Virus record (IMG/VR): IMGVR_UViG_3300028388_003048
Span: 1-20,290 of that record
DNA from: a virus
DNA: 20,290 bases
Reading direction: 5' to 3' (one strand)
This document shows positions 1 through 20,290 of the stretch, in pieces (positions within the stretch are counted from its first letter, which is position 1; each line of letters starts with the position of its first letter). Under the pieces are notes generated by a model. The model was not told where the DNA came from. It worked only from the letters and a program-made list of their open reading frames with translations, and did no database searches. Position numbers and translations under genes: made by a program.

Positions 1-780
1 ACGATCACGTCCGGTGAGGCGGGAGACGACGTGCGGGTGCAGGAGACGCTGGCCGACAATGGCGGGTCGCGCACGGTCAGCAGCGCGGCAGTTAGTGTGG
101 CGGCATCGGCAGTATGGACGCCTGCCAGCCTTGGCTCAAAGCTGATTGTATGGCTTGATTTCACCGATCCAGCCGCCATGAACACGGCAGCGGATGGGTC
201 GGGCAGCGCGCCGTCTGATACAGACACAGTTCACCGTGTCAACGACAAGTCCACTCAAGGCAATGATTTCAACAGCGCCAATGGCTTCGGCACCTACGAC
301 AGCACCAACAACTGCATCGTCACAACTACTACCGACGATGATCTGCCCGTGCCTGCTGGCACCCTAACCGGCACGACGACAGACATGATTGTTGCCGCAG
401 TTATGAACAGCAACGGTGACAACAGCTTCGTGCTGACCGGAGTGCGAGGCCCGTTGATCTACTTAGGGCAGGCGAACCTTGGCGCCTTGAACACAACCAT
501 TTCCTCACCGGAGTATGGATCGTCCCTTGAATACTACGACGATGGTGTTCTGATTTCCCCCAACACTCGAAACGACCTGTTCAACGAGTGGGGTAATAAA
601 TGGGCTTATCCAGAAGTTCATGGCGTGGACATCAACTCGAACGACCCCGATGTATCACCGTTCTATTACCCGTCGATTTCTTTGAACAATGGTCTTGTGC
701 GACATTACCTCCTTCTTACGAACAACCTCACGGCGGGCGAACTGTCTGATCTTCGTGCTTGGTTTGCAGGGGAGACGTGA
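1..780 (+). CDS. Tail fibre/adhesin C-terminal part with lectin-like domain (5' end outside window)
   Basis: The frame is open from base 1, so the true start lies upstream. A GTG at 31 would cut into an Ig-like beta segment (VQETLADNGG..SSAAVSV), so I treat the gene as partial. After that segment comes a region with the layout of concanavalin A/LamG-like phage adhesin domains: a hydrophobic strand IVWLDFTD, then VNDKSTQGNDF, and near the end LTAGELSDLRAWFAG, which matches the usual closing helix of such domains. The likely role is a structural tail fibre or receptor-binding component acting outside the virion. Its stop overlaps the next start (TGATG at 778-782), so the two fibre genes are probably translationally coupled. 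Lectin-like fold is inferred from pattern, not from an alignment; other beta-sandwich folds are possible. Confidence 0.65.
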   Translation, partial: TITSGEAGDDVRVQETLADNGGSRTVSSAAVSVAASAVWTPASLGSKLIVWLDFTDPAAMNTAADGSGSAPSDTDTVHRVNDKSTQGNDFNSANGFGTYDSTNNCIVTTTTDDDLPVPAGTLTGTTTDMIVAAVMNSNGDNSFVLTGVRGPLIYLGQANLGALNTTISSPEYGSSLEYYDDGVLISPNTRNDLFNEWGNKWAYPEVHGVDINSNDPDVSPFYYPSISLNNGLVRHYLLLTNNLTAGELSDLRAWFAGET

Positions 781-3089
781 TGTCACGCAAAATCCGATTT
801 AGCGGCTTTCCTACAGGCGAGACCGTTTCCCTCTCGGCCTCTCAGAATGGTGTGACATCCGGTCCCGTAAGCGTAAGCGCATGGAAGGCTGCCGTTTCCG
901 TATCGATCAGCCGCCACCCAACCGGCAATGTCCTGCCGGGTGAGGTCGTTATTTTCTACGTCACAGGAACCTCCGGCTTCACCGGCTCTGACGAATACGA
1001 GGAACTGGACTTCGAGTGGGACTTCGGTGACAGCGGGGCAACCTATTCCGTCGCACAAAACCTACCGTATTCGGACGGCAATACGGAATATGGCCGGATC
1101 GTCTCCCACGCCTACACCACGACCGGCGCAAAGACGATCACGGTCACGTTGCGCGACCACGCTACCGGACAGGTCGGCACTGCGACCATTCCCGTTACCG
1201 TGGACGATCCCGACAGCGACATCACATGGGACAACGACATTTACGTGGACTTCGGGGAGATTTCAGGCACACCGGATTTCACTGGCGCTGCTCCGCAGGG
1301 CGGGGGCGTTGTTCACGTCTCGTCCATCGCCGAATTGCAGAACCTTTCCCTGAACGGGAGCGCAGCCACCCGAAATACACGCATCACCTTTAAGAAAGGC
1401 GAGACGTTCACCTGGAACGCAAGCAGCTTCGGATGCGCGGGTCGCACCTACATCACATCGAGTGACAGCTTCGGCTCCGGCGCACGACCGAAGATCATTT
1501 CCGGCGAGCCGGATTTCAACGATTTCAACGGGGAACTGGAAACGCTCAAACTTTTCAACCCCGGCAATACGGGAGGGCAAAGTCACTTCGCGGTCTACGG
1601 CGTAGATTTCGACGGAACGTATGATCCAGTCACGGGAACGCATAACGGCGGAGGTTGGACGATTGTCTGCGGAGGTCTCAAGGCGGACGACGGCGACCTG
1701 TATCGCTCCTTTTGCCAGTGTAACCTCACGGGCATGAGGGCCGTCTTTATGTCGGAAGGCGCGGACGACATCGGAGCAACCGAGCGAACGTTTTTCGCAA
1801 TGCATGATACGAACGTGCAGGACTGGTCGGACTTCGGCGTTGCCGTATTCGGCACACACCTTATTGCCGGGATTGGCGGGTGCAGCATCCACCAGAACCC
1901 GTTGGCACACACGCGGGATGGCAAGCCTGTTCAACCCTACACGACCGACGACCTGAACAGATCGGCAGACCACGGCCCGCTGCGTCTACACAACACTGAA
2001 TACATCGGTATCACCAACTGCTTCATCGCTAACAGCACGGGCTGGTCTGCCCTATTGCCCAACGACCGTTCTATCCAGCCGATCCTGCGGTTGTCCACGC
2101 CGTATATCGACATGGGAGCCGACAATCCGTTCTCGCTGGTTACGGGCAATATCCAGCGGAACCGGACCATCGGGCATGGGGGCTGGCAGCTTGGGCGCAG
2201 GGAAATCAACAACGCGGGCGGGCTGGTCATGGGTTATTTCCCACGGCACGCCATGATCATAGACCGAAACGAGCATACAATTACCCGCCAGCACGCCGAT
2301 CATTTCATTGTCTCGTCTGGCGTTACCGGGATCTACGCCCGCAACAATGTCTACTACTGCGCTGATGTCTACTCGGCATCCAACCAATTCACAGTCTTTT
2401 TCCGAAACACACCAGCCAATGCGGATTGGTATGTGTTTGCAGGAGGGGCACAAACTGACCCAAGCTATGTTAGGTTTAACACTATGGTCTCAGACCGCTC
2501 TCTCGCCTCTGGTGACAACAAGGCGGTAGAGTTTATTGACGCCGACGCTAGCTCGCTTCCAACCCCGATATCCGAGAACAACATCGTCTGGGCTCCAAAC
2601 CACACCAACGCGGGCGATTTCACCGACTACACGCCACTTGACCGTTCGGACAACTTCAAGCCCGTCACCGGCTCGGCGGCCATCGACGCGGTGTCCTCGG
2701 GCACCATCCCCGTTCGTGACTTCGAGGGCAATCTGCGTGGGGCGACAACGAACTTGGGCGCGCATGACACGGAGAACGCATCGGCGGGAACAGTCGCGGC
2801 TCCGTCCTATACGTCTGGCCTCACCATTGCGGAGCTTTCTTGGGCGGCTGGCGACTACCACGTCAACGATTGGGGCACCTGGGACCACTGGCCCCTCGAA
2901 GACCGCTACATGGTAGAATGGAACTGGGAAGTCGATGGTTTCGGCCTGACTGATGGCGGCGAGCCTGCTCACTTCCGCAACTGGGCGAGGATCACGACCG
3001 AAACCGGAGACCTCACCTGCACGATCACCGCCACGAACCGCTCGGGGGTGAGGGAGCCTGCAACCTCGAACCCACTTACGCTGACGTGA
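780..3089 (+). CDS. Tailspike/fibre with PKD domain and parallel beta-helix
   Basis: The protein has 769 residues from the ATG at 780, which follows GGGGAG at a proper distance; an upstream in-frame TTG at 759 lacks this support. Residues 42-142 look like a PKD/Ig-like domain, with FEWDFGD at 78-84 and SHAYTTTGAKTITVTL at 109-124. The middle (about 180-660) has repeated short strand-turn units and ends with GSAAIDA, VRDFEGNLRG and NLGAHD, the pattern seen at the end of many right-handed beta-helix surface proteins. A tryptophan-rich beta domain (WAAGDYHVNDWGTWDHW) closes the protein. Beta-helix spikes of phages commonly bind and sometimes cleave surface polysaccharide; no catalytic residues can be assigned here. 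It sits between two other fibre-like genes, which supports a role in adsorption. Confidence 0.75.
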   Translation: MSRKIRFSGFPTGETVSLSASQNGVTSGPVSVSAWKAAVSVSISRHPTGNVLPGEVVIFYVTGTSGFTGSDEYEELDFEWDFGDSGATYSVAQNLPYSDGNTEYGRIVSHAYTTTGAKTITVTLRDHATGQVGTATIPVTVDDPDSDITWDNDIYVDFGEISGTPDFTGAAPQGGGVVHVSSIAELQNLSLNGSAATRNTRITFKKGETFTWNASSFGCAGRTYITSSDSFGSGARPKIISGEPDFNDFNGELETLKLFNPGNTGGQSHFAVYGVDFDGTYDPVTGTHNGGGWTIVCGGLKADDGDLYRSFCQCNLTGMRAVFMSEGADDIGATERTFFAMHDTNVQDWSDFGVAVFGTHLIAGIGGCSIHQNPLAHTRDGKPVQPYTTDDLNRSADHGPLRLHNTEYIGITNCFIANSTGWSALLPNDRSIQPILRLSTPYIDMGADNPFSLVTGNIQRNRTIGHGGWQLGRREINNAGGLVMGYFPRHAMIIDRNEHTITRQHADHFIVSSGVTGIYARNNVYYCADVYSASNQFTVFFRNTPANADWYVFAGGAQTDPSYVRFNTMVSDRSLASGDNKAVEFIDADASSLPTPISENNIVWAPNHTNAGDFTDYTPLDRSDNFKPVTGSAAIDAVSSGTIPVRDFEGNLRGATTNLGAHDTENASAGTVAAPSYTSGLTIAELSWAAGDYHVNDWGTWDHWPLEDRYMVEWNWEVDGFGLTDGGEPAHFRNWARITTETGDLTCTITATNRSGVREPATSNPLTLT

Positions 3090-6293: not shown

Positions 6294-6505
6294 GCCTCGT
6301 CCCCAACTGGAAGGCCATCTTGAAGAGGTCCTACAGCATCTGGTTTGGCGCCTACCTTCCACTCCTTTGGCTGCTGATCCCGGAGATAGTCTTCTACCTT
6401 ACCGGCCGCGATTGGTCGCCTACCTTCGTCTGGATCGTGGCCTTCCTTCTCGCCTCCATCACCCCAATCGTCCGCATCCTTCGACAGGGTATCGACTATG
6501 ATTGA
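6278..6505 (+). CDS. Putative holin, two membrane spans
   Basis: The protein has 75 residues; ATG 6278 follows AGGAG with seven bases spacing. A short basic N-terminus with LVPNWKAILKRSYSI (7-21) precedes hydrophobic spans at about 22-42 and 48-67, then a basic tail RILRQ. The phrase VPNWK..LKR-S followed by two membrane spans is typical of a family of small phage proteins annotated as holins (DUF7940-like). Two spans with a short hairpin would make it a class II-type holin. It ends inside the endolysin start region (8-base overlap), the classical holin-endolysin order. Expected role: forming lesions in the inner membrane at the end of the infection cycle. Confidence 0.7.
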   Translation: MAKRLSLVPNWKAILKRSYSIWFGAYLPLLWLLIPEIVFYLTGRDWSPTFVWIVAFLLASITPIVRILRQGIDYD

Positions 6506-7016
6506 GTGGCTCCTTTGCGCACTTTTCGCGGTCTGCGGCTCCACCGCCCCGGACAGCGCGCCTTCGTGGTCGGAGACGGCTGTTCACGCTGTCCCGCTTG
6601 TAGCCCGTTGGGAGGGCCTTCGTACCGAAGCCTACCTCGACACAATCGCCGAGCCGCCCGTCTGGACGATTTGTTACGGCGAAACGCAGGGAGTCCAACC
6701 CAATGAAGTCCGCACGGAAGAAGAATGTGAGCGTGGGCTCCGTCAAGGCTTGCAAGTCTATTGGCACCACTATCGCGGCTATGTTGAGGACGCTCGGGTG
6801 CTCGAGTCGGAAAGTGATGCGGCCTTCACGTCTCTGACGTGGAACATTGGATGGGGCGCGATAGGCCGCTCTACAGCCATGCGGCGGATCAATGCGGGCG
6901 ACGTGGCCGGAGGCTGCGAGGCGTTGACTTGGTGGAACAAAGCTGGAGGCCGCGTTATCCGTGGCCTCGTCAACCGGCGGCAGGACGAATACCGCCTTTG
7001 TCTGGAGGGAACCTGA
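6498..7016 (+). CDS. Endolysin, GH24 (T4/P21-type) lysozyme
   Basis: The protein has 172 residues and hydrolyses the glycan strands of peptidoglycan. Catalytic residues of the family can be placed: E39 in RWEGLRTEAYLD, D48 in the same segment, and T57 in WTICYGET. The Glu-to-Asp spacing equals that of P21 R; the Asp-to-Thr spacing is three residues longer. The WNIGWGAIG and RRINAGD stretches in the second half also fit the family. Residues 3-16 are weakly hydrophobic (WLLCALFAVCGS), so it may be exported as a signal-anchor-release enzyme; Cys7, Cys13 and Cys59 could take part in activation as in P1/P21 relatives. However, the extreme N-terminus has Glu3 and no Lys/Arg, which is odd for an export signal. 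It overlaps the holin gene and is followed by spanins. Confidence 0.9.
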   Translation: MIEWLLCALFAVCGSTAPDSAPSWSETAVHAVPLVARWEGLRTEAYLDTIAEPPVWTICYGETQGVQPNEVRTEEECERGLRQGLQVYWHHYRGYVEDARVLESESDAAFTSLTWNIGWGAIGRSTAMRRINAGDVAGGCEALTWWNKAGGRVIRGLVNRRQDEYRLCLEGT

Positions 7017-7120
7017 TGTGGGAACTTTTAGTAAATATCTTCGCAGGCGCTTTGATGATGCTAGTCGTCGTCGGCGCCTTCGGTATCCTCTACGCCTATT
7101 TTACGAAAGGTAAGTGGTGA
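7016..7120 (+). CDS. 34-residue single-span membrane peptide
   Basis: This short gene starts at ATG 7016, sharing its A with the endolysin stop (TGATG), and follows GGAGG with a normal distance. The peptide is one hydrophobic helix (about residues 4-28, NIFAGALMMLVVVGAFG) with a short basic tail YFTKGKW. It sits between endolysin and i-spanin and its stop overlaps the next start. Tight packing and a ribosome-binding site argue that it is real. It might be a second holin, an antiholin or a pinholin-like regulator; nothing in the sequence decides between these. Confidence 0.6.
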   Translation: MWELLVNIFAGALMMLVVVGAFGILYAYFTKGKW

Positions 7121-7374
7121 TAGAAAAGATCATCATACTTGCAGGCGCCGGAATGCTTCTATTCCTCGGCTACCAAGCCTATACCATCCAAAGCCTGCAA
7201 CAAGAACTAGCCTTTACCTCGGAGACCCTTTCATCGTGCCGCGCAACTCTCGCGGCCTATTTAGAAGGAGAGGACATCGATGATGACATCCCGCTTGACC
7301 TTGATGGCTTCCCTATTCCTCCTGAGTGGCTGCGAGGCGATCCTGTCCCGCGAGCCCCCTCCACTGGACCCTAA
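7117..7374 (+). CDS. Putative i-spanin (Rz-like inner membrane spanin)
   Basis: The protein has 85 residues from GTG 7117, which overlaps the previous stop (GTGA); a second GTG directly before it at 7114 is an alternative, both served by AAAGG. An N-terminal membrane anchor (about 4-20, IIILAGAGMLLFLGY) is followed by a short helix (QSLQQELAFTSETLSSCRATL, split here as residues 25-45) and a Pro/Asp-rich periplasmic tail with PIPPEWLR. This is the layout of an inner-membrane spanin that would bridge to an outer-membrane lipoprotein. The following lipoprotein gene starts within its last third in another frame, the hallmark of Rz/Rz1 pairs. The periplasmic helix is shorter than in lambda Rz. Confidence 0.65.
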   Translation: MIEKIIILAGAGMLLFLGYQAYTIQSLQQELAFTSETLSSCRATLAAYLEGEDIDDDIPLDLDGFPIPPEWLRGDPVPRAPSTGP

Positions 7375-7501
7375 GGAATTTTTCTGCCTCAACACGGAAG
7401 ACTTCCGTTACCTACAGGAAGAACTCGATGCCCGACAACCATGGCCTGCCAACCTCGCACGAGAGTTCCGCATCAACTCGCGGCGAGACCTCTGGTGTTA
7501 A
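7280..7501 (+). CDS. Putative o-spanin (Rz1-like outer membrane lipoprotein)
   Basis: The protein has 73 residues (72 if the ATG at 7283 is used). AAGGAGAGG lies just upstream inside the i-spanin gene. A basic start, hydrophobic core and lipobox LLSGC are clear; the lipidated residue would be Cys18. The mature part begins with EAILSREPPPLDP, Pro-rich as in many Rz1 proteins, but continues with a charged helix (YLQEELDARQPWPANL) and ends in a second cysteine, longer than the usual Rz1. It overlaps the i-spanin by 95 bases and the next gene by 74 bases. Expected role: outer membrane disruption together with the i-spanin in the last step of lysis of a Gram-negative cell. Confidence 0.75.
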   Translation: MMTSRLTLMASLFLLSGCEAILSREPPPLDPKEFFCLNTEDFRYLQEELDARQPWPANLAREFRINSRRDLWC

Positions 7502-9208: not shown

Positions 9209-9443
9209 GACGCCGAAGATGCCAGAGATGCCAGAGACGCCTAAGCCGCCACCGCCGAAACTCGGCCCGCTGCCGCCCACGTCAGCGTCCGCCCGGCCTG
9301 ACGGCAGCCAATTCAGCAGCCAGCGGTCGTTCGAAATGCCGGGGGTGGCGACTTCCTCGCTCGGTCTTATCAATCCGAATCTGCTGAAACGTAACACAGG
9401 CGGCGGAACTCCCGTCCGTCAATATATCGGAGGTCAGGCGTGA
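9189..9443 (+). CDS. Small proline-rich protein between terminase and portal
   Basis: The protein has 84 residues; ATG 9189 follows GAGGAG and lies inside the terminase 3' end. Residues 5-36 are almost entirely Lys, Pro, Glu and Met repeats (KPKTPKMPEMPETPKPPPP), so no globular fold is expected there. The rest is Ser/Gly-rich with LGLINPNLLKRN. Short Pro-rich proteins at this place, starting MGF- or MG-K-P, are common in podovirus genomes and are of unknown function; some may be minor virion parts. Its stop overlaps the portal start (GTGA), and it contains the portal ribosome site GGAGGT at 9429-9434. Confidence 0.7.
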   Translation: MGFLKPKTPKMPEMPETPKPPPPKLGPLPPTSASARPDGSQFSSQRSFEMPGVATSSLGLINPNLLKRNTGGGTPVRQYIGGQA

Positions 9444-11137
9444 AAAAACTTCCCATAGACGCACTCAAGCGGCTACAGGGAACTGTTGCGGCCGCTGAGG
9501 ATGAGTTCTCCTATTGGCGGCCTCATTTTCAAGAGATTGCGAAATACATCATGCCTCGGCGATACGTTTGGCTCGCCGAGCAGTCGCCGCTGAAAGGCAA
9601 CCTGCAGTCTAAGGGAACCCGCGCTTCGAAGCAGAGAAACAATCGCATTCTCGATCCGACAGGAACGACGGCTCTGCGCGACATGTCGGCGGGCCTTTTG
9701 AACGGTATCACCTCGCCCGCCCGTCCGTGGTTACGCCTCCGTGTCAGCGGATTCGAGTACGAGGAGCAAGAACGCGAGGTCCGCGCCTACATGGACGAGT
9801 GCGCCCGTCGGATGCAGATTGTCCTAGCTGAGTCAAACTTCTACAACGCTATGGCGGTGCTCTACCTCGATCTCGGTTGCTTTGGCACCGCTTCTATGCT
9901 CGTCTACGAAGATTTTGAAGAGGTTGTCCGCTTCTACAATTCCCCGATGGGGGAGTATCGGCTCGCGCAAGATCATCGGCGAATGGTCGATACCTTTACG
10001 CGGACCTTCGTTATGACGCTCCGCCAACTCGTTCAGATGTTTGGCGAGGAAAACGTCGATCCAAAACACAAACCTAAGATTAAAGAGGGCGGACAGGCAA
10101 TGGCGCAGCCCGTTGTAGTCTGCCATCTGATCGAACCTAACACGGACAACGGTGGCCCCGAATACCTCAAGGGCGGCTTCGATTACCGGGAGTTCTATTG
10201 GGAAAAAGACTGCCAAAGCGGGCAGCTTCTCGCCCACAACGGCTTCTATGAAAAGCCAGGTGCGTGGCCTCGGTGGGAAGTTACGGCAAATGACATCTAC
10301 GGAACGTCACCCGCGATGGACGCGCTGCCTGACATCATTCAGCTTCAGCAAGAAACGCTTCGAAAAGGGCAGTCGCTTGACTACCTCGTGCGCCCGCCGG
10401 TGGCCCTTGAAGGTTTCATGGCCAACCGCCCGACATCGCTCCTACCGGGCGGAAAAACCGCAGTTCCTTCCGGCGCCTCCTTCGGCGCGAAACCTATCTA
10501 CACGGTTCAGCCGCCGCTTGACGCTATGACCCTCGACATCCGCGACATCCAGATGCGGATACAAAAGCTCTTCTACAACGATTTGTTCCGTATGATTTCG
10601 AACCTCGACACGGTTCGGACGGCCACGGAAATTGATGCTCGAAAGGAAGAGAAGCTAGTCCTTCTCGGCGCAGTGCTCGAGCGGTTTGAAAACGAGGCGC
10701 TCGATCCAGTCATCCGTCGAGTCTTCCGCATCATGCAGCGCAAGCAACTCTTTCCGGAGCCGCCGGAAGGGCTCGACGAGGCGCAGATCGAAGTCGAATA
10801 CGTTTCGATCTTGACGGAGGCGCAGAAGGCTGTCGGCACCGCCACGACCGAACGGTTCCTGCAGGTCTACGGCAACACGCTTGCTATCGCCCCCGAGTTG
10901 AAGGCCACCGTCAACATGGATGAAATCATGCGGGACTATGGAGATCGTCTCAGCGTACCGGCTCAGTACTTCTATACCCGCGAAGAGGCCGCGGCTGCCC
11001 GGCAGCAGGACAATCAGAACGCCGAAGCCCGCGAAGCCGCGTTGGTCGGAAACGAGCTTACACAAGCCGCGAAGAATCTCAGCGAGACTGACGTGGGTGG
11101 AGGCGCCAATGCGATGCAAAGACTTCTTGGAGGCTGA
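9440..11137 (+). CDS. Portal protein (head-tail connecting protein family)
   Basis: The protein has 565 residues and forms the dodecameric ring through which DNA enters and leaves the head. The GTG start overlaps the previous stop and has GGAGGT five bases upstream. Family marks of the podovirus head-to-tail connecting protein are clear: FWRP-like opening YWRPHFQEIAKYIMPRR, DMSAGLLNGITSPARPWLRL (about residues 75-94), GTSPAMDALPDI, DYLVRPPVALEGF, and RTATEIDARKEEKLVLLGAV followed by RFENEALDPVIRRVF and VEYVSILTEAQKA. The C-terminus is rich in Ala/Gln/Glu, as often in barrel-forming portals. It sits between terminase and scaffold as expected. Confidence 0.93.
   Translation: MKKLPIDALKRLQGTVAAAEDEFSYWRPHFQEIAKYIMPRRYVWLAEQSPLKGNLQSKGTRASKQRNNRILDPTGTTALRDMSAGLLNGITSPARPWLRLRVSGFEYEEQEREVRAYMDECARRMQIVLAESNFYNAMAVLYLDLGCFGTASMLVYEDFEEVVRFYNSPMGEYRLAQDHRRMVDTFTRTFVMTLRQLVQMFGEENVDPKHKPKIKEGGQAMAQPVVVCHLIEPNTDNGGPEYLKGGFDYREFYWEKDCQSGQLLAHNGFYEKPGAWPRWEVTANDIYGTSPAMDALPDIIQLQQETLRKGQSLDYLVRPPVALEGFMANRPTSLLPGGKTAVPSGASFGAKPIYTVQPPLDAMTLDIRDIQMRIQKLFYNDLFRMISNLDTVRTATEIDARKEEKLVLLGAVLERFENEALDPVIRRVFRIMQRKQLFPEPPEGLDEAQIEVEYVSILTEAQKAVGTATTERFLQVYGNTLAIAPELKATVNMDEIMRDYGDRLSVPAQYFYTREEAAAARQQDNQNAEAREAALVGNELTQAAKNLSETDVGGGANAMQRLLGG
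11129..11133 (+). promoter_or_regulatory. Orphan ribosome-binding site at the portal 3' end
   Basis: GGAGG encodes the final Gly-Gly of the portal. It is followed after five bases by an ATG (11139) that opens only an 11-codon frame. The same TTGGAGGCT string at the end of the scaffold gene serves the capsid start, so here the site seems to lack its gene. A leader peptide is possible. Confidence 0.35.
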
Positions 11138-12237: not shown

Positions 12238-13236
12238 ATGGCAACACTAGCAGCCCAAAACCCGACGCTGCTGGATCACGCGAAGTCGCTTGATCCGGAC
12301 GGTCAGGTGGCGGCGGTGGTTGAAATTCTCAATCAGACGAACGAAATGCTCGCTGACATGACGTTCGTTGAGGGCAACCTGCCGACCGGCCATCGCACGA
12401 CGATCCGTACTGGTATTCCGGCACCGACATGGCGGAAGCTCTACGGCGGAGTGCAGCCCACGAAAACGACCCGTGAGCAAGTCACGGATACCTGTGGGAT
12501 GCTCGAGGCCTACAACGAGATCGACAAGGCGCTTGCCGACCTTAACGGCAACACAACTGAGTTCCGCCTCAGTGAAGCCCGCGGGACGCTCGAGGGCATT
12601 ACGCAAGAATTGCAGCAGACGGCAATCTATGGTGACACCGAGGTGAACCCGGAACGGTTCGACGGCCTCGAGGTCCGCTACAATTCGCTGTCCGCCGACA
12701 ATGCTGACAACATCATCGACGCCGGCGGGACAGGTTCGGACAACCGTTCCATCTGGCTTGTTGTTTGGGGTCAGGAGACGTGCCACGGGATCATCCCGAA
12801 AGGCTCGACCGCAGGCATCCAAGTCAACGATAAGGGCCAAGTCACCATCGAAAACGCAGATGGGAACCAAGGCCGGATGGAAGGCTACCGTATGCACTTC
12901 CGCGTTGATGCGGGGCTGTGTCTGAAAGACTGGCGCTATGTAGTCCGTATCGCCAACGTCGATAGGTCATCTCTTGCAGGCGATCTTTCGACCGGCGCAA
13001 ACCTGCCGAACCTGATGTTCGAGGCGATGGAGCGTGTTCCGTCTCTCGACATGGGGCGGGCTACGTTCTACATGAGCCGTGACGTGCGGACAATCTTCCG
13101 TCAGCAGCTTGCCAACGAGACGAAGCAGTCGACTCTTTCCTACGAAAATGTCGGCGGCATCCGCTCGATGATGTTCAACGAAGTGCCGATCCGCCGAGTG
13201 GACAAGCTGGCGGTCGATGAAGCCCGCGTAACCTAA
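12238..13236 (+). CDS. Major capsid protein (Bbp17/GP7-like)
   Basis: The protein has 332 residues, with GGAGG upstream. Recognisable segments of the GP7-type podovirus capsid family are VVEILNQTNEMLADMTFVEGN (about 22-42), GIPAPTWRKLYGGVQPTKTT, CGMLEAYNEIDKALADLNG, GLEVRYNSL, SIWLVVWGQETCHGIIPKGS, GLCLKDWRYVVRIANVD and the C-terminal FNEVPIRRVDKL. Length and gene order agree with BPP-1 Bbp17, whose structure is known to be an HK97-type fold with a permuted topology. It builds the icosahedral shell. It is followed after 12 bases by the cement protein gene, with AAGGAG overlapping its stop. Confidence 0.92.
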   Translation: MATLAAQNPTLLDHAKSLDPDGQVAAVVEILNQTNEMLADMTFVEGNLPTGHRTTIRTGIPAPTWRKLYGGVQPTKTTREQVTDTCGMLEAYNEIDKALADLNGNTTEFRLSEARGTLEGITQELQQTAIYGDTEVNPERFDGLEVRYNSLSADNADNIIDAGGTGSDNRSIWLVVWGQETCHGIIPKGSTAGIQVNDKGQVTIENADGNQGRMEGYRMHFRVDAGLCLKDWRYVVRIANVDRSSLAGDLSTGANLPNLMFEAMERVPSLDMGRATFYMSRDVRTIFRQQLANETKQSTLSYENVGGIRSMMFNEVPIRRVDKLAVDEARVT

Positions 13237-13900: not shown

Positions 13901-14494
13901 ATGCAAGAGTCGGCCCTTGATATTTGGAACCTAGCCCTTTCGGCGGTCCACGCTAAGGGCCGGCTCACCTCACTTACGGACAATAAAAAAGAACGCTACG
14001 AGTGTGAAACGTGGTATGACATCACTGTTCGTACGGTTCAAGAGGCCGCGTTCTGGCCGAGCAGCAAGCGCTCGAGTGTCCTTGAAGACCAGCAGGAAGT
14101 GACAGATACGACGGAGACCTCGACACACTTTTCGTACAGCTATCGCCTGCCGTATGACCTTATCAGGCCGCGGTATCTTGTGTCGTATCTGCCGTTCGAG
14201 TTACTCTACGATTGGAACACCGTCGAAGTCCGCCTTCATACGAATGACGACAACGCTCGGCTCGTCTACACGGCCCTCCAAGAAGACGTTAAAATGTGGA
14301 CTCCGGGTCAGGTAATGGCTACGGCTTATGGCCTAGCCGGGCAGATCGCTGGTCCACTTACAGGCCGCGGAGAGTTGATTCAGAAGAACTTTCGCCTAGC
14401 CAACGGCTACCTTATGGACGCACAGGCGTCTGTGTTGAACTCCGAAGCCCTTGCGATGGAGACATCTACCCATTCGGTGGAATGTTTGGAGTGA
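13901..14494 (+). CDS. Tail tubular protein A-like head-tail adaptor (T7 gp11-type)
   Basis: The protein has 197 residues, starting directly after the previous stop with GGAGG ten bases upstream. The opening ALDIWNLALSAVHAKGRLTSL followed by ERYECETWYDITVRTVQEAAFWP is the helical start of T7 gp11-type adaptors, which carry an A-x-x-C/W-Y-D-x-x-R-x-x-L pattern and a Trp. YSYRLPYDLIRPRYL and the later helices (QVMATAYGLAGQIAGPLTGR) also fit. Such proteins form the ring between portal and nozzle. Position directly before the nozzle gene supports the assignment. Confidence 0.85.
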   Translation: MQESALDIWNLALSAVHAKGRLTSLTDNKKERYECETWYDITVRTVQEAAFWPSSKRSSVLEDQQEVTDTTETSTHFSYSYRLPYDLIRPRYLVSYLPFELLYDWNTVEVRLHTNDDNARLVYTALQEDVKMWTPGQVMATAYGLAGQIAGPLTGRGELIQKNFRLANGYLMDAQASVLNSEALAMETSTHSVECLE

Positions 14495-14497
14495 ACG

Positions 14498-17329
14498 ATG
14501 CCTGAGTCTTTCATTTCGTTTGCTTTTTCGGCGGGCGTCCTGTCGCCGGGATTGCTTTCGCGGCCCGACCTTGAAAAGTACGACCTCGCCCTTAGAAAAG
14601 GCCATAATTGGATTGTGGACTATCGAGGCGGTATCTTCGTTCGACCGCCTTCGGAATACTGCGTGCCAACGAAGAACGGAAACGAGGCTGTTAAGCTTTA
14701 TCCTTTCCGCTTTAACCTCTTTCAAGGAAACATCTATACTATTGTCTTCGGAGATGAGTATATTCGGTTCCTGCAAGATGGCCGCTACGTGACCGATGTT
14801 TCTACGGAGGCTACGGTAACGGATATTTCGACAGACGCGCCTGCAGTAGTGACGACGGACGGCGCTCACGGCTACTCCAACGGCGACTGGATTTACCTTT
14901 CGACGGGCTACTATTACCTCGACAGCTTTCCATTCATCGTAAGCGATGCAACGTCTACGACATTCCAGCTACAAATTCCTAACTCGTCAGAAAAAGTGGA
15001 CCTTGCCCACTTGAACGGAGTCGCTACAGTAAGCGGAACCGTGAAAAAAGTCTACGAAATCTCTTCCCCCTATACCCTTGCAAACCTATCTACCCTCGAC
15101 TTCGACCAATACCGGGATGAGGTCTACATAACGAGCACGGAGTACTTTCCGCGAAAGCTTGTGCGGGCGGCGGACAACGACTGGACCATCGACCTTGTTG
15201 ACTTTTCCGGTAACAGAAATGCTCCCGGAGCACCGACGATTATAGTAGGGAAACAGAATAATGGTACAACTTACAACCCCGATACCGCCTCTACCGATGC
15301 AGGCGTCCTATACGGAGTCACCGCGGTTAATGCCGAAGGTCAAGAAAGCTACCTAAAAGACATTGGCATGGCGCTGAATGTCATCGACATCACTACCGAG
15401 CGCGGCTTTATCACTCTTGAGTGGACGGCCGTTTCTGACGCAATTCGCTACAACGTCTACCGAAGCCTATTCCTCGTCAAAAGTCAAGCGATGACCTTTG
15501 CGCAGGAACTTGGCTATATTGGAAAGACTCAGGCGCCGATCTTCCAAGATAATAATATTGTGCCAGACTTTACACAGACACCGCTGGTAATAGACAACCC
15601 CTTTACCGATGGTGCAATACTCGTCGTGAACGTTACGGCACCCGGAAGCGGCTACGGAAAAACTGACACTACTATTTCCATCACCAATGGTACTGGCTTT
15701 GAAGGCAAGGTCATCGTCAATGATGATGGTGAGGTCATCGGCGTCCGAATACTCAACCCCGGAAAAGATTACGCAAACGGGGCAGTAACTTTCGGAGGCG
15801 CCGGAACCGGGGCGACTGCCACGATCAATACAAGCCCTGTTGGAGGAAACAATCCGTCAGCCACTGCGCAGCTTCAGCAACGCCGCATCTACGCAGGCAC
15901 GCTTAACTTGCCTATGACTATCTTTGCTTCTCGTGTAGGGCAGCCTGACAGCTTCGACTTTTCTTCTCTCGTTGTCGCGGACGACGCGTACGACCTATCA
16001 ATGGACTCGCCACAGCTAACACCTATCGCCCACCTAGTTAAGGCGGACCTCGGCTTGCTTGTCTTTAGCGCTCAGCAGGTTATGCAGGTTCGTTCGACCG
16101 AAGACGGGATCATAACGCCGACGACATCGAAAGCGGAAAATATTTCAGACCTTGGGGCGGAGCCCATTAAACCGATCCGAGCGGAGGACAACACGCTTTA
16201 TATAGCCTACGGCTCGCATTCAATTCTTTCTATTGAACCGACTCAGCTTCGTAACTATTATCAGGTCCGTGATATTTCCGTCTTCTCCAATCACTTCTTC
16301 ACGCCCTATAATAAGGTAGTGAACTGGACGCTCTCGAAAATTCCGCAGAGCATCGTGTGGACGGTGCGGGAAGATGGCAGCCTCGTGACGATGGCCTACA
16401 AACCGGAGCAGAACGTCTACGCTTGGACAGACCACTCGACCGACGGTTTCTACCTCGACGTGGTGTCGGTTACGGAAGATAGTCAAGATGTTGTCTATAC
16501 GGCTGTCGAGCGGGAAGGCAACGTCTACATTGAGCGGTTCGTGCCGTTTGATCCAGAATTTGAATATGATAACTATGCTACGGACTCCTTCTTCGCGTTG
16601 CCCGCCGAAACCAACAATGACGCTGTGACTGTCTCCGACAGGAAAGGCTCTGACGTTACAGTTTCCTCCGCGACGAGCAGTGCTATTTTTACTGACGTCG
16701 TTGAGGGAGACCACATCATGTTCGGCGGCGGATTGCTTGAAGTCCTTAATATCGCCGCGGATAAGAAAAGCCTACAGGCGGACTACATATATCCACTCGA
16801 GATAGTCGATCGCCAAACTTATCAGCCTTATTCCTCATATGCATCGTGGAAACGGCTGCCTCAGATCAACCGTGTTCGTGGACTTTGGCACCTTGAGGGC
16901 AAGACGTTGAAGGCTATCGTAGGCACCGAAAGCTATGACGTAACAGTTTCTGATGGGGAGGCCCTGCTTCCCGAGTCTCTGCCTGTTCGTGCCGTGGGCC
17001 TCGATTATCAAAGTGACCTCGTAACGTTGCCGCTGAAATTGCAGGGCGCTGTTGTCGAAGACAAGAAAAAGAATATCACGGACGTCAGTCTCCGAGTGCA
17101 AGGCGCGCGAAGTTTTGCTGCTGGCACTCTTTCCGCGGGCGAGTTCTTCGACATCGAAGATCAGAACTACGATGACTTTGAACTCGATCAGTATATAAAC
17201 ACAAGCATCTATGAGATGGCTGTCAGCAGTGACTGGAGGGATGATGACTCAATCGTTCTCAGAAAAACCAAGCCTTTCAGAGGAAAGCTTCTTGGTCTTG
17301 TCACAAACGCGGAGTTCGGACTTGATTGA
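14498..17329 (+). CDS. Tail nozzle protein (T7 gp12/tail tubular B-type) with inserted domains
   Basis: The protein has 943 residues. The N-terminus has the nozzle pattern: FSAGVLSPGLLSRPDLEKYDLALRKGHNWIVDYRGGIFVRPPSEY (positions about 9-53), then YPFRFNLFQGNIYTIVFGDEYIRFLQDGRYV. Segments DQYRDEVYITSTEYFPRKLVR, QRRIYAGTLNLPMTIFASRVGQPDSFDF and VRGLWHLEGKTLKAIVG are also conserved in the family. Inserted parts are visible: a VTTDGAHGYSNGDWIYL unit near 125-165, an FN3-like segment (FITLEWTAVSDAIRYNVYRS) near 303-325, and GSGY-type repeats near 375-450. The protein is longer than T7 gp12 (about 794 residues), which these insertions can explain. It forms the terminal tail tube. Confidence 0.88.
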   Translation: MPESFISFAFSAGVLSPGLLSRPDLEKYDLALRKGHNWIVDYRGGIFVRPPSEYCVPTKNGNEAVKLYPFRFNLFQGNIYTIVFGDEYIRFLQDGRYVTDVSTEATVTDISTDAPAVVTTDGAHGYSNGDWIYLSTGYYYLDSFPFIVSDATSTTFQLQIPNSSEKVDLAHLNGVATVSGTVKKVYEISSPYTLANLSTLDFDQYRDEVYITSTEYFPRKLVRAADNDWTIDLVDFSGNRNAPGAPTIIVGKQNNGTTYNPDTASTDAGVLYGVTAVNAEGQESYLKDIGMALNVIDITTERGFITLEWTAVSDAIRYNVYRSLFLVKSQAMTFAQELGYIGKTQAPIFQDNNIVPDFTQTPLVIDNPFTDGAILVVNVTAPGSGYGKTDTTISITNGTGFEGKVIVNDDGEVIGVRILNPGKDYANGAVTFGGAGTGATATINTSPVGGNNPSATAQLQQRRIYAGTLNLPMTIFASRVGQPDSFDFSSLVVADDAYDLSMDSPQLTPIAHLVKADLGLLVFSAQQVMQVRSTEDGIITPTTSKAENISDLGAEPIKPIRAEDNTLYIAYGSHSILSIEPTQLRNYYQVRDISVFSNHFFTPYNKVVNWTLSKIPQSIVWTVREDGSLVTMAYKPEQNVYAWTDHSTDGFYLDVVSVTEDSQDVVYTAVEREGNVYIERFVPFDPEFEYDNYATDSFFALPAETNNDAVTVSDRKGSDVTVSSATSSAIFTDVVEGDHIMFGGGLLEVLNIAADKKSLQADYIYPLEIVDRQTYQPYSSYASWKRLPQINRVRGLWHLEGKTLKAIVGTESYDVTVSDGEALLPESLPVRAVGLDYQSDLVTLPLKLQGAVVEDKKKNITDVSLRVQGARSFAAGTLSAGEFFDIEDQNYDDFELDQYINTSIYEMAVSSDWRDDDSIVLRKTKPFRGKLLGLVTNAEFGLD

Positions 17330-17645
17330 GGTCACGGCTGAACAACCTCCGGAATGGGGTACGGAAATGTGGCAGGTCTCGAGTGAACGAGGGCCGCTGC
17401 TTTTGTTCGGATATACACAGCTTAGTCTCATTGCGAATGAGGTATACCTATTTTTGAAGCTGCTAGAAAAACCGCGGCCGTCGGAATTGAAAAGGTTGAG
17501 GCCACTTTTCATCCAATGGGCTGAAGGCTCTCGCGCCGTCATGTCGGTCAAGGGTGAGAAGGAACGACGCTTTGCAGAGTTCTTTGGGCTCTACGATACC
17601 GGATGGGACGGGCCTGACGGTGACATCTATGTAGGAGTATTCTGA
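17322..17645 (+). CDS. Small phage protein, possibly GNAT-related (T7 gp13 position)
   Basis: The protein has 107 residues from TTG 17322, which gives MIEVTAEQPPEWG and has GGAG at 17311-17314 with seven bases spacing and an 8-base overlap with the nozzle gene. ATGs at 17211, 17241 and 17244 are alternatives with much longer overlaps; ATG 17367 would give a shorter form. A helix ANEVYLFLKLLEKPRPSEL is followed by RAVMSVKGEKERRFAEFFGLYDTG, which resembles the end of an acetyltransferase-like fold (strand, RRF-E-FFG helix, strand). T7 gp13 at the same locus has such distant likeness and is needed for virion assembly. Catalytic activity is not supported, because no acetyl-CoA-binding loop is visible. 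Confidence 0.6.
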   Translation: MIEVTAEQPPEWGTEMWQVSSERGPLLLFGYTQLSLIANEVYLFLKLLEKPRPSELKRLRPLFIQWAEGSRAVMSVKGEKERRFAEFFGLYDTGWDGPDGDIYVGVF

Positions 17646-18247
17646 TGGGTTTCTTAGCTCCAGCAGCGGGGGCGGCTGCCGGGGGCGGCTCTATGCTTGG
17701 CACTATTGCCAATGTCGTAGGCATTGGCGCGACGATTGCCTCCACCGTTGTCGGAATGCAGGCCGCTCAAGCGCAGGCGCAGGCTCAATATCAGATGGCG
17801 ATGTATCAGGCTAAGGTGGCCGAAAACAACGCTATCGTGGCTCAAGATAATGCCAAACAACAGCGGCAGGTCGGCGCGATAGACCAGCAAGAGCAAGACT
17901 TTGAAGCACTTGCGGTTCTTGCAGAGGAACGAGCTAAACAGGGGGCCTCCGGCTTTACGTTAAATTCGACGGCCTTCCAACGACGAAACGCCACACTTCG
18001 GATGCTTGCTCGCCGGGATGCTCTCCGCATCCGGGATGACGCGGAACGAAAAGCTATCGCCTTCGAAAATCAAGCCTCCGGCGAACTTGCGTCAGCCCGT
18101 ATGAGTGAAATGGAAGCGGACAATGCGTTGACGGCGGGGAAATACAACAGCCTTTCAACCCTGATTGGCGGCGCCAGCATGATAAGCAATCAATTCTCCT
18201 CGATGCTTTCGCGTCGGGCCAGAGCGGTGAGTATGCCTTATGCCTGA
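17645..18247 (+). CDS. Internal virion/ejection protein (T7 gp14-like)
   Basis: The protein has 200 residues; the start overlaps the previous stop (TGATG). The N-terminus is a Gly/Ala-rich hydrophobic segment (about 5-37, MLGTIANVVGIGATIASTVVG), followed by a long Ala/Gln-rich helix (39-100) with repeated QA units, then ASGFTLNSTAFQRRNATLRM (101-120), a conserved phrase of gp14-type proteins, and more helix to the C-terminus. In T7-like phages such proteins leave the head first and form an outer-membrane channel for DNA entry. It precedes the large ejection protein, the standard order. Confidence 0.8.
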   Translation: MGFLAPAAGAAAGGGSMLGTIANVVGIGATIASTVVGMQAAQAQAQAQYQMAMYQAKVAENNAIVAQDNAKQQRQVGAIDQQEQDFEALAVLAEERAKQGASGFTLNSTAFQRRNATLRMLARRDALRIRDDAERKAIAFENQASGELASARMSEMEADNALTAGKYNSLSTLIGGASMISNQFSSMLSRRARAVSMPYA

Positions 18248-20290
18248 ACCTCTTGGACGTATTCGTTCCTCGCAGCAGATGAACCGAGCGCCCGCGCCAC
18301 GGGCTAATGCAAATGCTTTCGGTGCAGGCATTGCCCGTGCCATGAGCGGAATGGCCTCGTCGTTGGCGGATTTAGGCGCCTCGGCTCAGACCCTCGCAGA
18401 CGCAGAACAGCAACTACGTCGTGCTCATGAAGCGAGGCAAAATCGTCGGGTTCGAGCAGATGCACAGGTGGCTATCGAACGTGCGCGAGCTACGCTGGCG
18501 ATGGAGACGGAAGAACTACGGCGCCAGATGCCCGCAGACGGCTCGGGCTTTACAGAAGCCGTACACGGTCTGGTTACGGAACAGGTCTCGCAGCTTCGCT
18601 CGCAGATACCGGATGCTATCCGACCTGAATTTGATGCCCGCCTCGAAGACCTTGTCACCTCCTTCTCTGTATCGGCGTATGAAACGGAACTATTGCAGGC
18701 GGACGAGGCCTATACCAACTCGGTGTCGGAACTGTTACAGCAGGCGCAGAATGAGATTGTCCTGAACGAGGGCGACCCGACCATTATCGAAGAATGGCGC
18801 GGACGTCTTGCAGGGCTGCTGTCTACCTCACCGCTCGACGCGGCGGCTACGGAAATACTCACGGATCAGGTAAATAGTACCCTCGATGTTCTCGCCTTTA
18901 CGCGAGAAGCTCGGGCGGCTGTGGAAAATCCGGCGGCGGATATGGGCTCCCTTCCGGGCGGTACAAATGGAGGCCGCGATATTGCTGCGACAGGTGTTCC
19001 GGGACCAATCCGTGGAATGCTTAATGCGGGTACCGGAGAGTTTACCTCACCGAGCCCGAATGTTCAGATCGACATAAATCCGGGGACGGGTAGGCCGCAA
19101 CAAGAGTTGCTTAATATCCTCTCTCATACGGTTGAGCAGGTCTTCGGCCCCGGTGCTCGCATCGGTATTTCCTCGGGTCACGAAGGGCGCTCGACCGGCA
19201 CTCGACGGCACCCGGCAGGAACTGCTGCGGACTTCGTTATCCACCTGCCGAACGGAGAGGTCCTGCCTTACATGGACCCACAAGGCAACAATGTTGTTCG
19301 TGAGTTTCTTTTGCAGGCGGCACGGAACGGTATCCAAGGAATGGGCTACGGCTCCAATTATATGGGCAATGCCTTTCACATGGACATCTTTCCGCCAGAG
19401 GAGTATCGCGGTGAATGGCACGTTTGGGCGGAACTCGGGAGCGATAGTGAATTAGTTCAAACGATTCAAAATCGTGGCTTGAGCGGGGAAGGTGCTTATC
19501 AAGCGCAGCAGACTTTTGATCCTGTCTATGGACAGTACTCTGAAGGAACGTTCGACGATTTCTCGCAGCATCCCGGAGGCAATGCTGGCCGCTACATGAT
19601 GTCTCCGGAAGCGTGGGAGGAGGCGCGCCTTCAACTTGGCCTCAGCGATTTCAGCCCGGCCTCGCAGGATCGGGCGGCTTGGTGGCTTGCCCGACGGGAG
19701 TATGAGGAGGCCACCGGACGGAGCCTTGAGGCGGACATTGCGTCAAGCGATCCGGCTAGGATTGAAGAGGTTCGGCAGACGCTGATTGAATTTTCTGACG
19801 GCTTCAGTCTACCCGGTATCGAAGATATGTCGCCGCAGGACTTCTACAATCAGGTTACGCTCAGCGACGCTACCCTACCGGGCGTGATGTATGACGAGCG
19901 TTTTCAAGATATTCCAGTCGGCGACCGAATTGAAATCTTTGAGGGACAGCAGCAGGCGTATATAGAACGGGTGACAGCGCGACAGCAACAAGCGGACGCT
20001 GAGCGGGCCTCGTTCCTCGACCAACTTGAGGCGAACATTCAACTCGGCAATGCCGGAATGGCCGAGATACAGCAGGCGCAACAACGGTATAATCTGCTGC
20101 CTACGGAAATGGTTGGGCTCGTTGATGCGTTTGAAAGTGCTAATGCTCAGCAAATGCAGATGGCGCGGTTTGCTGGGCAGATAAATGATCCCAATGCCTT
20201 TATCGATATGTCGCGTGACGGTACTCGGCAGGCGTATAATCAGTACTCGAGCGCCGTGCACTCACCGATCCTCGATGAACAGAATATGGA
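18240..20290 (+). CDS. Large ejection protein with M15-type peptidase and GH104-like transglycosylase domains (3' end outside window)
   Basis: ATG 18240 overlaps the preceding stop by eight bases, and the frame stays open to the window end (at least 683 residues). Residues 40-210 are helical. At 300-385 lies a zinc-peptidase motif set: H324-P-A-G-T-A-A-D331 fits the M15 pattern H-x-x-G-x-A-x-D, and FHMD (His380, Asp382) fits the third ligand; GMGYG precedes it. At about 410-500 a lambda-lysozyme-like (GH104) domain follows: SGEGAYQ with Glu417 at the place of lambda R Glu19, FDDFSQHP (His444), AGRYMM (450-455), LQLGLSDFSPASQDRAA (464-480). The rest is helical with Gln/Ala repeats. The likely role is local digestion of peptidoglycan during DNA entry, as for T7 gp16, though domain types differ. 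Activities are inferred from motifs. Confidence 0.82.
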   Translation, partial: MPEPLGRIRSSQQMNRAPAPRANANAFGAGIARAMSGMASSLADLGASAQTLADAEQQLRRAHEARQNRRVRADAQVAIERARATLAMETEELRRQMPADGSGFTEAVHGLVTEQVSQLRSQIPDAIRPEFDARLEDLVTSFSVSAYETELLQADEAYTNSVSELLQQAQNEIVLNEGDPTIIEEWRGRLAGLLSTSPLDAAATEILTDQVNSTLDVLAFTREARAAVENPAADMGSLPGGTNGGRDIAATGVPGPIRGMLNAGTGEFTSPSPNVQIDINPGTGRPQQELLNILSHTVEQVFGPGARIGISSGHEGRSTGTRRHPAGTAADFVIHLPNGEVLPYMDPQGNNVVREFLLQAARNGIQGMGYGSNYMGNAFHMDIFPPEEYRGEWHVWAELGSDSELVQTIQNRGLSGEGAYQAQQTFDPVYGQYSEGTFDDFSQHPGGNAGRYMMSPEAWEEARLQLGLSDFSPASQDRAAWWLARREYEEATGRSLEADIASSDPARIEEVRQTLIEFSDGFSLPGIEDMSPQDFYNQVTLSDATLPGVMYDERFQDIPVGDRIEIFEGQQQAYIERVTARQQQADAERASFLDQLEANIQLGNAGMAEIQQAQQRYNLLPTEMVGLVDAFESANAQQMQMARFAGQINDPNAFIDMSRDGTRQAYNQYSSAVHSPILDEQNM

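Follow-up and report, generated by a model that had tools for sequence, protein, structure and literature searches.

Genes of the contig

The window analysed here is a single IMG/VR virus record of 20,290 bases, a metagenome contig that represents a fragment. From left to right it carries a PKD-containing gene and further spike-like genes, a lysis cassette, a spanin-like pair and the large terminase, followed rightwards by the portal, the major capsid protein and tail tubes A and B; the series closes with a gp14-like internal virion protein and, last, the two-domain open reading frame (hereafter, the ORF). The PKD-containing protein (776 aa; positions 759-3089, upstream of the lysis genes) has no PHROG match and is possibly a tailspike or a surface-degrading protein. 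The lysis cassette includes a separate GH24 endolysin (6498..7016, plus strand; Pfam Phage_lysozyme, E 1.7e-32), so that the ORF protein is not needed for lysis. An Rz-like frame at 7114-7374 (phrog_739, E 0.0045) is overlapped, in a different frame, by a 65-aa frame with the lipobox MASLFLLSGC (7304-7501), the two being a probable overlapping spanin pair. Together with the type of phage, this spanin-like pair suggests that the host is probably Gram-negative.

The structural genes, all on the plus strand, indicate the type of phage. The portal or head-tail connector (9440..11137; phrog_332, E 8.2e-132) is of the epsilon15-BPP-1-Rauchvirus type, being 35-38% identical by tblastn to those of epsilon15, BPP-1, Caulobacter Rauchvirus and Cobetia Carin1-type podophages. 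It is followed by the major capsid protein (12238..13236; phrog_212, E 1e-88), a tail tubular protein A-like gene (13901..14494; phrog_394, E 1.5e-25) and a tail tubular protein B-like gene, or tail nozzle (14498..17329; phrog_376, E 4.9e-114). A 144-aa protein that matches no family (17211-17645) occupies the place of epsilon15 gp13, which is annotated as a GNAT-like internal virion protein. The gp14-like internal virion protein comes next (17645..18247; phrog_418 internal virion protein, E 9.4e-11, and a weak T7_gp14 Pfam match).

The ORF itself (18240..20288, plus strand) begins with the ATG at 18240 and stays open to the end of the window, where the contig end cuts the frame; 683 aa can be read, and about 370 C-terminal residues are unseen, as judged from a 1049-aa homolog. 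This closest relative, the sole close homolog found, is encoded in an independent IMG/VR contig of 44,795 bp (IMGVR_UViG_2911509878_000001, hereafter L013) and shows 49% identity over aa 4-676 of the ORF (E 1.7e-183). Identity reaches 75% in the M15-like segment, the best conserved part of the protein, 47% in the GH104 domain, and 34-48% in two N-terminal blocks and the C-terminal part. Neither the whole-protein scan, nor that with the M15 piece only, nor the A1/A2 profile searches of GTDB genomes found a relative. Apart from L013, a search with degenerate DNA encoding RHPxGxAADF returned only chance matches. The fusion of the two domains might be regarded as an assembly or frameshift artefact of two genes, as it comes from one metagenome contig with a frame reaching the contig end; however, the uninterrupted and identical architecture in the independent L013 rules out an assembly artefact, and the probability of this explanation is negligible.

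Two candidate wall-cutting domains

The original prediction had recognised in the ORF the metal-binding pattern of M15 peptidases (H324...D331 / H380-x-D382) and the motifs of GH104 lytic transglycosylases (SGEG / DFSQHP / AGRYMM / DFSPASQD), and in both cases closer analysis agreed. H324, D331, H380, D382, E417 and H444 are placed exactly in the ORF, the GH104 motifs lie at aa 415-418, 440-445, 449-454 and 470-477, respectively, and all these residues are unchanged in L013.

The first domain, a predicted zinc peptidase of M15-like (clan MD) type, covers aa 286-400 (19095..19439, plus strand). Its metal pattern, H324-x6-D331 plus H380-x-D382 with S312-G313 preceding, is the one of M15_2/M15_3, and comprises the predicted zinc ligands H324 (19209..19211) and D331 (19230..19232) and a third metal or catalytic motif, H380-M-D382 (19377..19385), all on the plus strand. 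The R-H, H-x6-D, H-x-D and S-G motifs are invariant across the six sequences with this domain; homologous domains with 29-35% identity occur in Rhizobium and Sinorhizobium phages, and also in four more IMG/VR contigs. No Pfam or NCBIfam family matched the domain, including PF08291, PF05951 and PF13539, the cut-offs of which were not reached; membership of a curated M15 family by Pfam was thus rejected, and the domain is filed as M15-like, outside those families. A deep hhalign comparison with known M15_2/M15_3 proteins (MepK and six phage M15 proteins) gave an E-value of 3e-5 and a score of 35.3, versus a top score of 20.8 among 300 column shuffles. In this comparison the S-G, H-x6-D and H-x-D motifs fall in register with MepK and the phage M15 enzymes, with H324, D331 and H380-x-D382 aligned to H133, D140 and H173-x-D175 of Escherichia coli MepK. 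An earlier and shallower comparison, of six versus seven sequences, had yielded E 0.034 (0.008 when trimmed), one of 200 shuffles scoring higher, before the profile was deepened with sequences of Rhizobium jumbo phages, phiM6 and Atu_ph03. MepK is the best-aligned named cellular relative of the M15-like family, which, as a working hypothesis drawn from sequence, may be of the same L,D-endopeptidase kind.

Structure prediction, the check that had been proposed for both folds, pointed in the same direction. Since a joint MAFFT alignment misaligned the two domains, they were modelled one by one with AlphaFold. The nearest PDB folds to the M15-like model (pLDDT 75) were Sonic hedgehog, LysECD7, VanX and Ply500, all of them clan-MD/LAS folds, with modest Z-scores of 4.7-5.6. 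H324 corresponds to model residue 57 and adjoins a low-confidence stretch (50-55); as the metal-site positions lie in or beside such parts, their assignment rests on sequence conservation. Moreover, Sonic hedgehog is a zinc-binding non-enzyme, so the fold of the M15-like domain does not prove catalysis. It could be argued from this that only the GH104 domain is enzymatic and that its M15-like neighbour is a non-catalytic, hedgehog-like module binding zinc or the wall, which positions the transglycosylase; Sonic, Indian and Desert hedgehog are indeed the nearest PDB folds, and the sequence is distant from the curated M15 families. Such a proposal looks unlikely, however, given the metal-ligand motifs, the S-G and the H-x-D that are invariant in six sequences and coincide in the alignment with those of MepK and further M15 enzymes, the canonical M15_3 domain found in a protein of like kind from the phage Atu_ph03, and the M15-like segment being better conserved than any other part of the protein.

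The second domain, a GH104 or lambda-R-like transglycosylase domain, extends over aa 405-550 (19452..19889, plus strand). It matches PHROG 17230, annotated as 'tail fiber/lysozyme' (E 1.1e-7), and its best PDB match by sequence is lambda lysozyme (E 0.002), whereas hhalign of the window and L013 sequences against seven independent GH104 sequences reached E 1.7e-14. E-G, HP and AGRY are invariant, and LxDFSPxSQD is conserved, across tail and endolysin GH104 proteins. E417 (19488..19490, plus strand), the predicted catalytic Glu at the position of lambda R E19, belongs to the E-G that is invariant in the seven-sequence GH104 alignment, and is in register in hhalign. The lambda lysozyme structures 3d3d and 1am7 rank first and second against the GH104 model (pLDDT 70), with Z-scores of 5.9 and 5.7, again modest, the next match reaching at most 3.4. 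The confidence of both domain models is moderate. Model confidence is low in the first 26 residues at the N-terminal end, and E417 is inside such a stretch, so this residue was assigned by sequence.

The converse possibility, that only the M15-like domain cuts and that the GH104-like part is an inactive relic or a binding module with a diverged C-terminal lobe and a shifted Glu, has to be weighed here. The C-terminal lobe has diverged and is not alike in the window and L013, nor is the loop around E417, which changes in length; conservation amounts to 47% versus 75% for the M15-like domain, and the position of lambda R D34 is lost. Nevertheless, E417, H444, AGRY and most of LxDFSPxSQD are kept in both proteins, and D34 is variable in other GH104 proteins as well, which makes inactivity of this domain quite unlikely.

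The gp15-like slot

Genes of the ejection operon in podophages are arranged in the order gp14-like, gp15-like and gp16-like (PMC8954989). In L013, a gp14-like gene (phrog_418) is followed by the 1049-aa homolog and then by a 1320-aa protein that matches phrog_342 in its C-terminal half only, phrog_342 being the T7 gp16-type family of internal virion proteins with an endolysin domain. The window ends before this gene, and the gp16-like gene downstream is known from L013. By synteny, the ORF occupies the gp15-like slot, and this gene order with its gp14-like and gp16-like flanks upholds the original reading of an ejection protein, which presumably is present in virions. The slot is not that of T7 gp16, with which the protein had been compared: a PHROG search of the ORF gave no match to phrog_342, which in L013 belongs to the next gene, and equivalence to T7 gp16 was rejected on the evidence of both slot and PHROG. 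T7 gp16 is likewise an ejected wall cutter, but with a single SLT domain at its N-terminus.

The N-terminal region of the ORF protein (aa 1-257; 18240..19010, plus strand) is Ala/Glu-rich and probably a structural or tunnel part. By hhalign it resembles the SLT-type ejection proteins of MW202473 and MW202478, a marginal match (E 2.7e-4 over 114 columns) that was the best of four comparisons, and the comparison gave no match to the slot proteins of epsilon15, Carin1 and SR18. The slot of related podophages holds an SLT domain, detected by Pfam in SR18, Carin1, MW202473 and MW202478 and recorded as an HHpred note in epsilon15. Thus epsilon15 gp15, SR18 gp41, Carin1 gp33 and the 'transglycosylase slt domain' protein of MW202473 share the gene slot with the ORF, in phages with related portals, but contain one SLT domain (or its HHpred equivalent) without M15. 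The simplest reading is that the wall-cutting module has been exchanged within a gp15-like scaffold; hydrolase domains can swap between the gp16 and gp15 ejection proteins (PMC8954989).

A different view would make the ORF protein an ordinary tail- or lysis-associated enzyme, as could be read from the 'tail fiber/lysozyme' label of its PHROG match, from the GH104 domains that tape-measure-like proteins carry too, and from the 'endolysin' label given in databases to the counterpart in Atu_ph03. We find this very improbable: the window has its own GH24 endolysin and spanin-like genes, the order gp14-like, ORF and gp16-like is that of podophage ejection operons (PMC8954989), and the N-terminus marginally resembles SLT-type ejection proteins.

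Altogether, the ORF quite probably encodes a gp15-like ejection protein of an epsilon15/BPP-1-type podophage in which a divergent M15 peptidase and a GH104 domain replace the SLT domain, giving a putative two-enzyme wall opener. In such a scenario, opening of the outer membrane would fall to the gp14-like protein, and the two-domain protein would exit after it through the tail, refold in the periplasm and bind zinc there. The M15-like domain might then cleave a stem-peptide bond or a cross-link and the GH104 domain the MurNAc-GlcNAc bond, so that the adjacent domains would make a small hole in the wall, whereupon the helical ends of the protein could build, with the gp16-like protein, a periplasmic channel for the DNA. 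A peptidase placed beside a transglycosylase may need fewer cuts to open a hole in a cross-linked wall. What the sequences show directly is the homology of both domains, the preserved active-site residues and the position of the gene. The channel role is what we infer for this protein, and catalysis by each domain, bond specificity and virion location are drawn from the families concerned.

Paired wall enzymes in other phages

The idea of a two-blade wall-opening device is not without precedent. When viral models were searched by structure, a match emerged in the Agrobacterium phage Atu_ph03, where a T7_gp14-family gene is followed by a 1191-aa protein with SleB (PF07486, E 2e-18) and M15_3 (PF08291, E 2.6e-19) domains, and then by a 1254-aa protein. 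The SleB and M15 pair was at least 80% covered in ten phage records, including Atu_ph02, Alfirin and Nostoc phage NMeng1, as well as the DarB-like proteins of POI1126 and Atu_ph08. The 'cell wall hydrolyse' of Atu_ph03 (ASV44586.1; Autographiviridae, Atuphduovirus) and its counterparts in Atu_ph02, Alfirin and NMeng1 likewise sit in the podophage gp15 slot, as proteins of ~1200 aa combining M15 with a glycan cutter, with a gp14-like gene upstream and a large gp16-like gene downstream. In contrast to the window, where a divergent M15 precedes GH104, their SleB (Hydrolase_2) is N-terminal to a canonical M15_3. This gp15-slot protein of Atu_ph02/03, Alfirin and NMeng1 (L119:930-4505, H165-H169) is labelled 'endolysin' in some records (RefSeq NC_047845/NC_047846, Alfirin and NMeng1), although it lies in the ejection slot, with gp14-like and gp16-like flanks.

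For Atu_ph08, a 2019 paper had already noted a 'cell wall hydrolase + peptidase' in DarB (PMC6630229); that pairing is part of a giant antirestriction protein of DarB type, which also has a methyltransferase and a helicase, whereas in the window it belongs to a gp15-like protein. The nearest kin of the M15-like domain itself are found in proteins of 678-812 aa from Rhizobium RHph_N3_19-type and Sinorhizobium phiM6 68-kb phages, which likewise pair it with a wall hydrolase, there SleB-like, but without GH104, in another type of phage and in a gene that adjoins the portal. These portal-adjoining proteins of Rhizobium and Sinorhizobium phages are annotated as 'hypothetical' (L002:8815-10851, L011:7173-9611, L014-L017), and consist of the M15-like and SleB-like domains plus a Gly/Ser-rich tail. 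A pairing of Phage_lysozyme2 with an M15-like domain is present in 193-kb Rhizobium phages; in RHph_N28_1 (193 kb; L118:2626-5286), a tail protein holds Phage_lysozyme2 at aa 468-597 and, from aa 625, an unannotated M15-like domain.

Other known systems are more distant. The PhiM1 ejectosome (PMC11440229), also of a Gram-negative podophage, has two wall-directed domains as in the window, but split over OEP and TEP and both glycan-directed. On the other hand, phi29 gp13 (PMC9863714) is a podophage virion protein that joins lysozyme-like and endopeptidase domains, but its host is Gram-positive and the protein belongs to the tail tip and not to an ejection operon. The pairing of a peptidase with a glycan cutter is therefore not unique, being found with other glycan cutters in a few phages of soil bacteria; the M15-like plus GH104 protein, seen in a gp15-like protein in the window and L013 only, is a new combination of a known but little-noticed design.

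Reviews describe the virion-associated wall enzymes of Gram-negative phages as single-domain, and two-domain ones as typical of Gram-positive phages (PMC9863714, PMC5380687). The two-domain ORF and its sequenced relatives of like design argue against this rule. They also indicate that standard databases overlook a family of peptidases. A broader reading, which we hold as doubtful though conceivable, is that phages whose hosts are Rhizobiales-type or related Gram-negative bacteria have repeatedly and independently paired M15 with GH104, SleB or phage lysozyme, in proteins opening the wall during infection, because the walls of their hosts need both cross-link and glycan strand to be cut, the divergent M15 being the cross-link cutter. 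If true, the divergent M15 family common to the window and the Rhizobium phages would perhaps cut 3-3 links. These proteins, some of them from isolated phages, make up a defined set for testing whether DNA entry needs both bonds to be cut.
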